Assembly (NCBI RefSeq): GCF_009659535.1
Contig: NZ_VJZZ01000001.1
Location: 62,001-126,000, forward strand
Source: Aggregicoccus sp. 17bor-14
GTDB taxonomy: Bacteria; Myxococcota; Myxococcia; Myxococcales; Myxococcaceae
DNA length: 64,000 bases
Direction: 5' to 3'
The notes under the pieces were generated by a model that was not told the DNA's origin, searched no databases, and saw only the letters and a list, made by a program, of their open reading frames with translations. Of the stretch, positions 48,251 to 52,861 are shown piece after piece. Within the stretch, counting starts at the first letter, position 1. Every line of letters begins with the position of its first letter. The translations under genes and the position numbers were made by a program.

Positions 48251-48817
48251 CTAGGGAGCCCGGGCCACCACCTTGAGCGGCCAGGTACCCAGGGGCTGGC
48301 CCGCCACGCGCACCAGCACGGAATAGGTGCCCGGGCCGCGGCACTCGGTGGGATCCCAGTCGACCGTGTACTCGGAGACCTCGCCCTGCACGCCGGTGAA
48401 GGAGAGCGTGCCCGAGGCGCTCATCGCCGTGTCGCCGCGCGCATCCAGCACCACCACGTCGATGGGGGCCGTGCGCCGCGCGCTGCTGCGCACCTTCACG
48501 CGCGTGCTGAAGGGCTCGGTGCGCAGGGGGCTGCCCGTGAGCGCAACCTCCGAGAGCGCGCCGGTCTGCCGGGCGCCCTTCATGTGCTGCACGCCCAGCA
48601 CCTCGAAGCGCTCGTCCACCGCGCGCACCTGGGGGCCGGCGGGCTCGGGGGCGGAGCGGCTCGCAGAGAGCTCCTCGCCCTTGGGCAGGGCGCCGAGGCC
48701 CGTGAGCCCCAGCGAGGGGACGGACATGGGCGGCTTCTTCGCCTTGGCTTTCGGCTTCTCGGCGAGGACGGCCGAGGAGCAGAGCAGGGCGGCGACCACG
48801 AGCAGGGCAGGGCGCAT
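48251..48817 (-). CDS. exported hypothetical protein
   Basis: A 188-residue protein with a signal peptide (about 1-19, ending AVLAEK) and a basic Lys/Pro stretch, then a beta-rich domain with a final segment resembling an Ig-like fold (VSEYTVDWDPTECRGPGTYSV). One Cys in the mature part. No known family. It is 19 nt after the GNAT-like gene and may belong to the same transcript. Confidence 0.75.
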   Translation of the reverse strand: MRPALLVVAALLCSSAVLAEKPKAKAKKPPMSVPSLGLTGLGALPKGEELSASRSAPEPAGPQVRAVDERFEVLGVQHMKGARQTGALSEVALTGSPLRTEPFSTRVKVRSSARRTAPIDVVVLDARGDTAMSASGTLSFTGVQGEVSEYTVDWDPTECRGPGTYSVLVRVAGQPLGTWPLKVVARAP

Positions 48818-48836: not shown

Positions 48837-50012
48837 CTACAGCGCGCGCTGGTAGATGCGGTAGGTCTTGGAGCGCTGGCCGCCCATGGACTCGATCGCG
48901 CGGTTCACGAGGTGGTTGTCCTCGAGCGTCCAGGAGATCTCGCCGCCGCGGTAGCCGAGGCGGTGCGCGGTGCGCAGGGTGTCCAGGTAGAGGATCGCGT
49001 CCAGGCCCCGGCGCCGGTAGCCCTCCTTGATCCCCAGCGTGATGAGCCGCAGCCGCTCGATGCGCCGCGAGGCGAGCACCAGCTTGGCGAGCCCGATGGG
49101 CAGGCCGTAGCGGGTGAGCCGGCCGCCGGCCGCCTTGAGGGCGTAGTTCGCGTCCGGCAGGGTCATGGAGAAGGCGACGGGCTCGCCCTTCACCTCGGCG
49201 ATGAGCACCAGGTCCGGGCGGACGATCGCCTTGAGCTCGCGCGCGAGGTGATCGAACTCGTGGTCCGTCATGGGCACGAAGCCCCAGTTGCGCTCCCACG
49301 CCGCGTTGTAGATGTCCTTGATGAGGGCGATCTCCTTGGAGAGCTCCTTCATCCGCACGGGGCGCACGGTGATGCCCTCGCGCTTGCGCATCTTCTCGGC
49401 GATCCGCACCACCTTCTCGGGCGGGGTGGCGGACGCCGAGAGCTCGAAGGCCCAGAGGTCCTTCGCCTTGCGGAAGCCGCACGCCTCGAGCAGCCCCGGG
49501 TAGTAGCCGGGGTTGTAGGGCATGAGGATCGCGGGCGAGCTGTCGAAGCCCTCCACGAGCAGGCCGAACTCGTAGTTGCTGCTGAAGCTCGCGGGGCCCA
49601 GCACCTCGGTGAAGCCGCGCGCCTTGAGCCAGCTGCTCGCTGCGTCGAACAGGCCGCGCGCGACGCCCGGCTCGTTCACGCAGTCGAAGAGGCCGAAGAA
49701 GCCGTACGTGGTGCCGTGGTACTCGTTGTAGCGCGGGTCCTTCACCGCCGCGATGCGGCCCACCACCTCGCCGCCGCGGCGCGCGAGGTACAGCTCCACC
49801 TCGCCGAACTCGAACCAGGGGTTCTTCTTCGGGTCGAGGAAGTCCTTGCGCTCCATCTCCAGCGGCGGGACCCAGTGCGGGTCGTGCCGGTAGAGGGCGT
49901 AGGGGAAGCGGATGAACGCCTCCCGGTCCGCGGCGCCGCGCACGGGCGTGATGCTGACGTCCGCGGGGACGGGAGGAAGCTCGAGGGCCTGTTGCTCGGC
50001 GGGAAGGGCCAT
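48837..50012 (-). CDS. GNAT-like acyltransferase, candidate bacterial ceramide synthase
   Basis: A 391-residue GNAT-fold protein without close resemblance to small acetyltransferases. It opens with a RFPYALYRHDPHWVPPLE-type segment common to a family of large GNAT-like proteins and ends with a GYRRRGLDAILYLDTL acyl-CoA-binding loop (R/Q-x-x-G-x-G/A-like). The bacterial ceramide synthase described in Caulobacter is a GNAT-like protein encoded near serine palmitoyltransferase. Here the gene follows a serine-palmitoyltransferase-like gene by 13 nt on the same strand. Function as ceramide synthase is inference from context. Confidence 0.8.
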   Translation of the reverse strand: MALPAEQQALELPPVPADVSITPVRGAADREAFIRFPYALYRHDPHWVPPLEMERKDFLDPKKNPWFEFGEVELYLARRGGEVVGRIAAVKDPRYNEYHGTTYGFFGLFDCVNEPGVARGLFDAASSWLKARGFTEVLGPASFSSNYEFGLLVEGFDSSPAILMPYNPGYYPGLLEACGFRKAKDLWAFELSASATPPEKVVRIAEKMRKREGITVRPVRMKELSKEIALIKDIYNAAWERNWGFVPMTDHEFDHLARELKAIVRPDLVLIAEVKGEPVAFSMTLPDANYALKAAGGRLTRYGLPIGLAKLVLASRRIERLRLITLGIKEGYRRRGLDAILYLDTLRTAHRLGYRGGEISWTLEDNHLVNRAIESMGGQRSKTYRIYQRAL

Positions 50013-50025
50013 GGGCGTTGGAGTC

Positions 50026-51555
50026 TTACTCAGCCTGCTTGCCGTTGCGAATAAAGAGGTTCGCGCCCTTCTCGAGCAGCATGCCTGGCAGCTCGGTGCG
50101 CTTCTCCCAGAGCCGCAGCGGGGTGCCGCTCAGGCGCTTGAGGTCCTCGGACTGGAGGTTGGCCGCACGCCAGGTGAGGGTCTCCACCGCGTCGAAGAGC
50201 TTGCCCGCCACCTCGCGGCCGCTCATGCGGCTGATCTGCTCGAGGGAGAAGCCGCGCTCGGCGAGGAGCCCCGCGCTCGCGGCCGCCCAGCGCTGGCTGG
50301 CCTCGTTGGAGAGCACCGCGGTGCCCGGACGGGCGATCTGCACCGGCGTGTACACCGTGGGACGGGTCTCCGGGATGACGCCCATCTTCTTGCCGATGCG
50401 CTCGAAGGTATCCAGCACGCGGTCCAGCTGCGCGTCCGTGTGCGTGGCCATGTAGCTGGTGCGGATGAGCGCGTGGCCCGGCTCCACCGCGGGGGCGGTG
50501 ACGGGGTTGGCGAACACGCCCGCCTCGTGCAGCGCGCGCCAGAAGCGGAAGCACTTCACCTGGTCGCCGATCAGCACCGGCACCACCGGGGTCACCGAGA
50601 CGCCGGTGTCGAAGCCCATGGCGCGGAAGCCGTTGTGCATCTTCTCCGCGATGTCCAGCAGGCGCGCGCGGCGCTGGGGCTCGGCCTGGATGATCTCCAG
50701 GCTCTTGAGCGCCGCGGCCACGCTGGCCGGGGTCATGGACGCGCTGAAGATGACCGAGCGCGCCTTGTGGCGGATGTACGTGATGACGTCCTGGGGACCC
50801 GCGAGCACGCCGCCGAGCGAGGCGAAGCTCTTGGAGAAGGTGCCCATCACCAGGTCCGTCTCGCGCTCGAGGCCGAAGTACTCGCTGGTGCCGCGGCCGT
50901 GCTCGCCGATGACGCCCATGGCGTGCGCGTCATCGGTCATGACGCGGGCGTTGTACTTCTTCGCCAGCTCCACGATGCGCGGCAGGTTGCAGATGTCGCC
51001 CTCCATGGAGAAGACGCCATCGGTGACGATGATCTTGCCCGCCTCGGGGTCGGCCGCCTGCAGCAGCTGCTCCAGGTGCTCGAGGTCGTTGTGGCGGAAC
51101 TTGCGCTCGGTGGCGAAGGAGAGGCGGATGCCGTCCACCAGCGAGGCGTGGTTGCCGCGGTCCGAGAAGACGATGTCGTGCCGGCCCAGGATGGAGGCGA
51201 GCGCCAGGTTCGTCTGGAAGCCGGTGGAGATCACCACCGCCGCGTCGCGGTTGAGGAACTGGGCGAGCTTGTGCTCGAGCTCCTCGTGCAGCACCAGCGT
51301 GCCGTTGAGCAGGCGCGAGCCGGAGCAGGTGGAGCCGAACTTCTCCACCGCCTTGATCGCGGCCTCCTTCACCCGGGGGTCCGCGGAAAGGCCGAGGTAG
51401 TTGTTCGAGCCGACCATGATCACGCGGCGGCCGTCGATCTCCACCTCGGTGGCCCCGTGGCTCGCCTCGATCACCCGGAAGTAGGGGTAGAGCCCCGTCG
51501 CCTTCGCGATCTTGTAGTCCTTCCAGCTGCTGCACTTCTCGAACACGTCACTCAT
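50026..51555 (-). CDS. alpha-oxoamine synthase, serine palmitoyltransferase-like
   Basis: A 509-residue fold-type I PLP enzyme of the AONS/KBL/SPT family, which condenses an amino acid with an acyl-CoA. Conserved features are NNYLGL near residue 51, D209/H211 in TDDAHAMGVIGEHG, and PLP lysine K242 in GTFSKSFASLGG; FSKS is typical of serine palmitoyltransferases rather than AONS/KBL. A 100-residue C-terminal extension (about 410-509) is unusual. With the next gene it probably starts sphingoid-base synthesis. ATG 51555; an in-frame extension of 20 residues is low-complexity. Confidence 0.88.
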   Translation of the reverse strand: MSDVFEKCSSWKDYKIAKATGLYPYFRVIEASHGATEVEIDGRRVIMVGSNNYLGLSADPRVKEAAIKAVEKFGSTCSGSRLLNGTLVLHEELEHKLAQFLNRDAAVVISTGFQTNLALASILGRHDIVFSDRGNHASLVDGIRLSFATERKFRHNDLEHLEQLLQAADPEAGKIIVTDGVFSMEGDICNLPRIVELAKKYNARVMTDDAHAMGVIGEHGRGTSEYFGLERETDLVMGTFSKSFASLGGVLAGPQDVITYIRHKARSVIFSASMTPASVAAALKSLEIIQAEPQRRARLLDIAEKMHNGFRAMGFDTGVSVTPVVPVLIGDQVKCFRFWRALHEAGVFANPVTAPAVEPGHALIRTSYMATHTDAQLDRVLDTFERIGKKMGVIPETRPTVYTPVQIARPGTAVLSNEASQRWAAASAGLLAERGFSLEQISRMSGREVAGKLFDAVETLTWRAANLQSEDLKRLSGTPLRLWEKRTELPGMLLEKGANLFIRNGKQAE

Positions 51556-51916
51556 CGCGGGGCCTCGGGGCGTCGGTTGCCCGGGTGGGGATAAAGGGGG
51601 CGAGCTGGAGTGCAATGGGCATTCCAGGCGGAGCCTTCCGGCGGGTGCCGCTCCGCGTCGACGCGGGGGCGGCTCTTAGAGATTGGGTCTGGCGGTGTCA
51701 AGGCGAAGGCCGGGTCCCGGTCCTAACTCTGGGAGAACACTCAATTCCCCTGGAGGCCAAGAAGGCAGGCGGGCCTCCGGTGGGATCGGCAACATCCGCG
51801 GAGCAGGCGGACCGCCCGTCCGTGTGCTCGCGTGCAGCGTTTAACACGGCGCCGCGCCGGCCGCCGCAGCGTCCGAGATCAGGCCGCAACCCTGACAGGC
51901 GTGTCAGACTGTAGGC
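51556..51916. other. divergent intergenic region of 361 nt
   Basis: It separates the serine-palmitoyltransferase-like gene from the PAP2-type gene and must hold promoters for both. A perfect inverted repeat (CTGACA-GGCG-TGTCAG) lies 9 nt before the PAP2 start. I found no other clear motif, and the open frames inside it lack coding character. Confidence 0.55.
51892..51907 (+). promoter_or_regulatory. candidate operator (inverted repeat) before PAP2 gene
   Basis: A perfect 6-bp palindrome CTGACA (51892-51897) and TGTCAG (51902-51907) with a 4-nt spacer, ending 9 nt before the GTG. The spacing is right for a dimeric regulator or for a small hairpin over the ribosome-binding site. Confidence 0.35.
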
Positions 51917-52861
51917 GTGAGGCCTACCGCCCCCAGCCCCCTGCAGCTCCCGGTGCGCCTGCTGCCAGTGGACGCGGTGATCGTCGCCGTGTGCGCGGGC
52001 GCGAGCCTCGCGCTGCTCTCCCCCTGGGGGCGCTGGGCGCCCGGGGCAGCGCGCTCGGCGGCGGGCTTCGGAGTGCTCGCGCTGGGGCCCCTGCTCCTGC
52101 GCTGGCTGCAGGCGCGTGCGCCGCAAAGCCGCACGCTGCGGCTGCTCGCCTCCTTCTGGATGCTGCCGGTGGCGGGGCTCGCGCACACGCTGCTCAACCC
52201 GCTCGTCGACGCCGTGGGGCACCCGCTCTACGACGCGCAGCTCGCGCAGCTGGACGCGCACCTGCTCGGCGTGCAGTTCGCCCTGTGGGCCGAGCAGCAC
52301 GGCCCGCGCTGGCTCGAGGACGTGCTGCTGGTCTGCTACTACGGGCACTTCGTCTGGTCGCTGGTGCTCGCCGGCGCGCTGTACGCGCGGGCCGAGCGCC
52401 GCGCCTTCGAGACCTTCCTGCTCGCGGTCTCCGTCTACCTCGCGGCCAACTACGCGCTCTATGCGCTGGTGCCGGCCGTGGGCCCGCGCTTCTTCCTCGC
52501 GGCCCACTTCGCCGAGCCGCTGCGGGGCCTGTGGCTCGCGCCGCGGCTCGCCGGGCTGATGATGCTCCCGGCCTTCCTGCGCGACTGCTTTCCCTCGGGG
52601 CACACGGGGCTCGCGCTGCTGGTGTTGATCACCGCGTGGCGGCGCGCCCGGGGCGTCTTCTGGGTGGCGCTCGCGCCGTGCGCGGGGCTCATCGCCGCGA
52701 CGCTCGTGGGCCGCTTCCACTACGCGGTGGACCTCGCCGCGGCGCTGCCGCTCGCCTGCGGGGTGGCGGCGGCGGCCGAGGCGCTCTACCGTCGCCTGCC
52801 GGATACGGAGGGCGCCGTGGCGCGCGCCGAGCCCGGCGTCCCGGAGTCCGAACCGCAGTGA
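51917..52861 (+). CDS. PAP2-family membrane enzyme, IPC-synthase-like
   Basis: A 314-residue protein with about seven membrane helices and the PAP2 catalytic residues: CFPSGHTG (C224, H229) and GRFHYAVD (H268, D272). The C-terminal order, the CFPSGH variant and a central YYGHFVW segment resemble the PAP2_3/Aur1 inositol-phosphorylceramide synthase group rather than simple lipid phosphatases, but the KxxxxxxRP box is missing. It would transfer or remove a lipid phosphate. GTG 51917. Divergent from the sphingolipid-like pair. Confidence 0.82.
   Translation: MRPTAPSPLQLPVRLLPVDAVIVAVCAGASLALLSPWGRWAPGAARSAAGFGVLALGPLLLRWLQARAPQSRTLRLLASFWMLPVAGLAHTLLNPLVDAVGHPLYDAQLAQLDAHLLGVQFALWAEQHGPRWLEDVLLVCYYGHFVWSLVLAGALYARAERRAFETFLLAVSVYLAANYALYALVPAVGPRFFLAAHFAEPLRGLWLAPRLAGLMMLPAFLRDCFPSGHTGLALLVLITAWRRARGVFWVALAPCAGLIAATLVGRFHYAVDLAAALPLACGVAAAAEALYRRLPDTEGAVARAEPGVPESEPQ

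Follow-up and report, generated by a model that had tools for sequence, protein, structure and literature searches.

A putative ceramide locus of Aggregicoccus sp. 17bor-14 with an extended serine palmitoyltransferase and a probable head-group transferase gene

Gene content of the locus

We found that a short segment of the window (the whole 64,000-nucleotide stretch of Aggregicoccus sp. 17bor-14 DNA that was analysed) carries genes for a serine palmitoyltransferase (SPT), a GNAT-type ceramide synthase homologue and a PAP2_3 membrane protein, which together probably make a phospho-ceramide (rough probability 0.82). Ceramide is a fat typical of animal membranes, and, judging from sequence comparison, the spt and GNAT genes almost certainly make it in this soil bacterium. 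In the pathway that we propose, SPT would join L-serine to a long-chain acyl thioester to give 3-ketosphinganine, the GNAT protein would N-acylate either the sphingoid base itself or the 3-keto form of it, and the PAP2_3 protein would transfer a phospho-head group, either inositol phosphate or phosphoethanolamine, from a phospholipid to the ceramide; the reduction step would be encoded elsewhere in this lineage, with ElbA as a candidate. What we observed is homology to known proteins, conserved catalytic residues, placement within clades, linkage of the genes and their co-occurrence; from these we infer the substrates, the order of the steps and the head group, and every statement on function draws on homology, gene linkage or published studies of relatives. 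The window belongs to a 6.9-Mb genome from the family of Myxococcus, Corallococcus, Archangium and Citreicoccus. The features of the locus are:

48251 to 48817, minus strand: DUF6941-like gene downstream of cerS (weak Pfam DUF6941 match, below the cut-off)
48837 to 50012, minus strand: GNAT-fold bacterial ceramide synthase (cerS/bcerS; yghO/aca family), 391 aa, predicted from homology and adjacency to spt
50026 to 51555, minus strand: serine palmitoyltransferase (spt), 509 aa, PLP lysine K242, predicted from homology, tree and catalytic residues
50026 to 50373, minus strand: C-terminal module of SPT, residues 395-509, motif [LVI]F-D-x-V-E-x-[LM]-T-W-R
51556 to 51916: intergenic region of 361 bp between the divergent spt and PAP2_3 genes, presumed two-way promoter region
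51917 to 52861, plus strand: PAP2_3 membrane protein, 314 aa, probable phosphoceramide head-group transferase (AUR1/IPC-synthase-like)

The start of spt is the ATG at 51555 (MSDVFEKC...), and the matches of relatives begin at the same residue. A first-pass annotation of this DNA had placed the spt and GNAT genes next to each other on one strand, 13 nt apart, and the PLP lysine at K242 in GTFSKSF; the gap indeed spans 50013-50025 on the minus strand, and K242 lies within MGTFSKSFASLGG. That annotation described the pair correctly, but the range that it covered also holds the third gene, at 51917-52861 on the plus strand, which its text did not mention. Since the minus-strand genes hold the G+C-rich third positions (G+C 0.95) and are conserved (67-87% identity to relatives), the long plus-strand frames lying over spt and the GNAT gene are shadows.

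Comparison of coordinates by eye revealed the GNAT gene directly after spt in 34/34 Myxococcaceae genomes with both genes inside a contig; in the 35th genome, spt lies at a contig end. The DUF6941-like neighbour is kept even beside degenerate SPT genes in relatives. With regard to the Caulobacter-type five-gene set (aasR, cerR, acpR, spt and cerS), no cerR, acpR or aasR was found among the identified spt neighbours; an AasR-like protein (36%) is encoded on another contig of the window's genome, and a search for AcpR beside its gene was negative. Two database records may be mentioned here. One, BNCN01000013.1, titled Comamonas sp. KCTC 72670, contains a full Myxococcus-type sphingolipid locus (SPT identity 84%) and is probably mislabelled or contaminated; the other, a Priestia megaterium plasmid, carries an SPT-like gene (L182:3998-5212), 54% identical to the window SPT, with no GNAT or CerR gene annotated alongside.

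The PLP enzyme and its GNAT partner

Based on several lines of sequence and model comparison, we assign the PLP protein at 50026-51555 as a serine palmitoyltransferase. Its best solved relative is the Sphingobacterium multivorum SPT (8guh/3a2b), with 401 bits over residues 5-390, as compared with 270 bits for KBL (1fc4), 221-225 for cysteate acyltransferase and 198 for AONS (1bs0). The same Sphingobacterium SPT was the first structural match of the AlphaFold2 core model, with 49% core identity in the structural alignment and with the fold and catalytic residues in common. The Asp and His of the PLP site (D208 and H211), the PLP lysine K242 and the SPT-type arginine R365 were conserved in all 19 myxobacterial and all 6 reference SPTs aligned. 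A tree of 58 alpha-oxoamine synthases, cysteate acyltransferases not among them, placed the window enzyme inside a clade containing all reference SPTs (support 97/90), with E. coli KBL (100/100), E. coli BioF and the PKS-linked synthases (PKS-AOS) outside it. The enzyme scored below the curated cut-off of each NCBIfam SPT model, NF047600 (SerpalmtaseCFB; 512.2 bits, cut-off 640), NF047599 (370.1, cut-off 500) and NF047603 (311.2, cut-off 670), which argues against those particular models and not against membership of the SPT family; the scores would fit a separate myxobacterial branch of SPT. SPTs of Myxococcus, Stigmatella and Sorangium have been reported to group with Bacteroidetes SPTs (PMC9386255).

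The GNAT protein is classified as a CerS homologue by sequence. Full-length homology links it both to E. coli B YghO (34% identity, E 2e-79, residues 19-391) and to the CerS proteins of Sphingomonas and Roseomonas (39-41% identity), whose genes sit in Caulobacter-like sphingolipid regions. Kinship with Caulobacter CC_1154 was bridged through these relatives, yghO and CC_1154 having been entered as one gene, 'aca' (PMC9386255); CC_1154 and YghO share with the window protein a GNAT-type length and linkage to spt. No useful match came from a sequence search against solved structures. Among plasmids, the closest relative (52%) is from Streptomyces and belongs to an SPT-GNAT-SDR operon; the same operon is present in Rubrobacter, and the three genes are linked in Aureispira. 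The gene lies directly 3' of spt, whereas the Caulobacter-type cerS is in an operon separate from spt (PMC11324152). As for the distribution of the family, E. coli BL21(DE3) has a complete yghO-aasR-cerR-acpR-spt set (L048:9283-14886), and yghO is present in 4501/5426 complete E. coli genomes. In several Myxococcota lineages a second CerS-like GNAT gene, its product 54-59% identical to the window GNAT, follows CerR (loci L124, L125, L126, L198, L217-L221 and L227).

Thus, the expectations of the first-pass annotation were largely borne out: the SPT-like enzyme groups with SPTs, apart from both KBL and AONS; the likeness of its partner to bacterial ceramide synthase holds along the whole protein and through the CC_1154 equivalence; and SPT clade, CerS homology and conserved linkage agree with the pair being the start of ceramide synthesis. 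Its view of the pair as ceramide-synthesis genes stands, but not its implied novelty, as the Myxococcus and Stigmatella SPTs had already been recognised (PMC9386255). The pathway itself is known, and the pair would be a further instance of it, set apart by an uncommon form of SPT, a gene that probably serves the head-group step and the lack of a reductase; what is new is the SPT-linked PAP2_3 gene, the SPT tail module on inactive orthologues, and the absence of CerR with ElbA as a candidate.

A PAP2_3 gene linked to spt

The protein encoded at 51917-52861 matched Pfam PAP2_3 above the cut-off and has the invariant motifs DCFPSGHT and RFHYxxD (His/His/Asp). A sequence search against solved structures gave nothing useful; its predicted model (mean pLDDT 84) matched best the IPC synthases 9vj4 (Z 17.9, 253 residues) and 9ivc (Z 17.7, 257 residues), a match that takes in the N-terminal helices, although fold alone does not show function. 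Among 50 genomes, homologues were found in 22/29 with a true SPT and 0/21 without (Fisher p 2.6e-8, not corrected for kinship), and all 22 PAP2_3-bearing genomes have a copy within ~6 kb of spt. The gene is kept near spt in relatives from four families; the next genes past it (for an aminotransferase and methylmalonyl-CoA mutase) were not found there in the other families. In Myxococcus, Corallococcus and Archangium, spt is separated from PAP2_3 by an MMPL transporter gene that is in line with the latter, whereas the window locus has none between them.

Because the protein matches IPC synthases best and occurs only with SPT, it is probably a phosphoceramide head-group transferase, as inferred from fold, motifs and co-occurrence. 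It shares with AUR1/IPC synthase and Bacteroides BT_1522 the fold, the PSGH and RFHYxxD type motifs and a ceramide-synthesis context, but the solved IPC synthases are 14-15% identical to it. In Bacteroides, the PI-ceramide synthase step has been attributed to BT_1522, an AUR1 homologue (PMC9246714), and production of ceramide phosphoinositol by M. xanthus is reported in work cited there. The window's genome contains a myo-inositol-phosphate synthase family member; however, four of the PAP2_3-bearing genomes searched lacked a recognisable inositol-phosphate synthase, so that inositol cannot be assumed as the head group in every carrier.

Absence of CerR and the candidate ElbA

In relatives including Myxococcus xanthus AM003, SPT and CerS are followed by CerR; in AM003 (L205) the three form an SPT-GNAT-CerR operon. 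The first two genes and their order in such operons, of Actinomycetota as well as Myxococcus, are as in the window, but the locus of the window's lineage is without CerR: none was found beside spt-cerS in the loci of the window genome, Citreicoccus, Corallococcus, Archangium and Pyxidicoccus fallax. The best CerR candidate in the window's genome (G000:C7:277557-278528; L115:11558-12583), 35-38% identical, is ElbA, encoded upstream of a HAD gene and a reductase-ligase-ACP-acyltransferase megaprotein gene with the ElbD layout. ElbA falls inside the CerR clade (98/98) and has a counterpart in every genome searched. We rejected the reading of this gene as a relocated CerR orthologue: it belongs, as elbA, to the elb cluster for ether lipids, and SDRs like it are present whether or not a genome has CerR. 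Insertions in elbA left ether lipids unaffected (PMC9131029), which leaves ElbA free for another role. By its place in the clade, ElbA may be a replacement for CerR, a candidate that we offer as a lead and not as a finding.

Alternative readings

The PLP enzyme might be another alpha-oxoamine synthase (AONS, KBL or a sulfonolipid cysteate acyltransferase), with the GNAT protein acylating something else. The fold is common to all alpha-oxoamine synthases and the curated SPT models score under their cut-offs, but the position in the tree apart from KBL and BioF, the far lower score of cysteate acyltransferase than of SPT, the SPT-type GTFSKS motif and a partner that is a CerS homologue found in conserved operons with CerR make this reading very improbable. 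A more serious rival concerns the PAP2_3 protein, which may be an ordinary lipid phosphatase acting on phosphatidate, undecaprenyl pyrophosphate or ceramide phosphate. Its fold and motifs are common to PAP2 phosphatases, LpxE (Z 14.5) and PgpB (Z 13.8) also match the model, and a ceramide-phosphate phosphatase would give an identical linkage to SPT; these matches, however, extend over 163-172 residues, as against ~255 including the N-terminal helices for the better-matching IPC synthases, and the protein strictly co-occurs with SPT. We judge a phosphatase to be the less probable assignment, at something like one chance in four, and favour a head-group transferase.

It is also conceivable, though rather unlikely, that the product in the window's lineage is a 3-keto (unreduced) ceramide, CerR having been lost. 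The absence of a CerR orthologue beside spt-cerS in the taxa named above points in this direction, as does the build-up of oxidised ceramide in Caulobacter cerR mutants (PMC11087976), but the presence of ElbA, a CerR-clade protein, in every genome searched and the KDSR homologues reported in Myxococcus (PMC9278070) argue for a reduced product.

A C-terminal module retained on inactive SPT relatives

The SPT-like protein had been credited with a C-terminal extension of 100 residues; the extension is real but longer, as similarity to the SPT core ends near residue 394, giving a tail of ~115 residues. This module is 67-83% conserved within Myxococcaceae and ~30-39% in other families of the order, and it was absent from the six reference SPTs, Sphingobacterium multivorum SPT among them, and from the non-myxobacterial genomic hits. 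It has no Pfam family, and a literature search, with most subscription journals outside it, gave nothing relevant on a C-terminal extension of bacterial SPT; by these comparisons the tail is an undescribed module of Myxococcota. AlphaFold2 gave a good core and a helical tail of low confidence, so we claim no fold for the tail.

We found that 13 genomes of the same family without a catalytic SPT carry SPT relatives instead (L134-L140 and L142-L147; for example, L134:3807-5153 and L143:2435-3913), all 13 of which have lost K242 and R365 and kept the module residues E458, T461, W462 and R463. These degenerate SPTs form one clade (100/100), on long branches, within the SPT clade, and in four loci (L137, L140, L143 and L145) they share with the window SPT its nearby DUF6941 and 47181-type genes, so that they are apparently descendants of one and the same gene that have lost their catalysis. 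Their dN/dS, ~0.11-0.23 in five pairs of close relatives, is similar to that of true SPTs, suggesting that they are not decaying pseudogenes; the module on them is under purifying selection. In L140, MlaC-like and TolC-like genes are beside the degenerate SPT gene, and L145 is similar by eye.

These observations are most simply explained if the module has its own function, probably in docking or regulation, and if this function outlives SPT catalysis; because it is conserved independently of catalysis, it would most likely dock SPT to a partner or the membrane. In several of the genomes with degenerate SPTs, one or two CerS-like GNATs are encoded near a PKS to which an alpha-oxoamine synthase is fused, and the two loci read have an AasR-like gene as well. 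Clusters of a CerS-like GNAT, an AasR-like ligase and such a PKS, in genomes with no catalytic SPT, are found at L152, L131, G017:C104, G015:C127, G054:C64, G012:C761 and G019:C38. PKS-made sphingolipids are possible in Myxococcota; the layout is related in kind to that for the PKS-made sphingolipids of Pseudomonas fluorescens (PMC12134224).

More tentatively, the module may be a new regulatory or docking unit independent of catalysis, such that in several Myxococcaceae lineages the ancestral SPT has become an inactive protein in which the module still functions, the sphingoid base now coming from a PKS-fused alpha-oxoamine synthase, a bacterial parallel to LCB1/SPTLC1; we regard this fuller scheme as a speculative one that is more likely wrong than right. 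LCB1/SPTLC1 is the inactive subunit of eukaryotic SPT.

Significance

A compact myxobacterial locus thus gains predicted ceramide-forming steps and a likely head-group step, by which the route to the ceramide phosphoinositol reported in M. xanthus becomes testable, and the loss of CerR makes ElbA a concrete candidate for the missing function. To our knowledge, regulation of SPT by an inactive relative has so far been known only in eukaryotes; if confirmed, a tail that outlives its enzyme would be a bacterial form of it.
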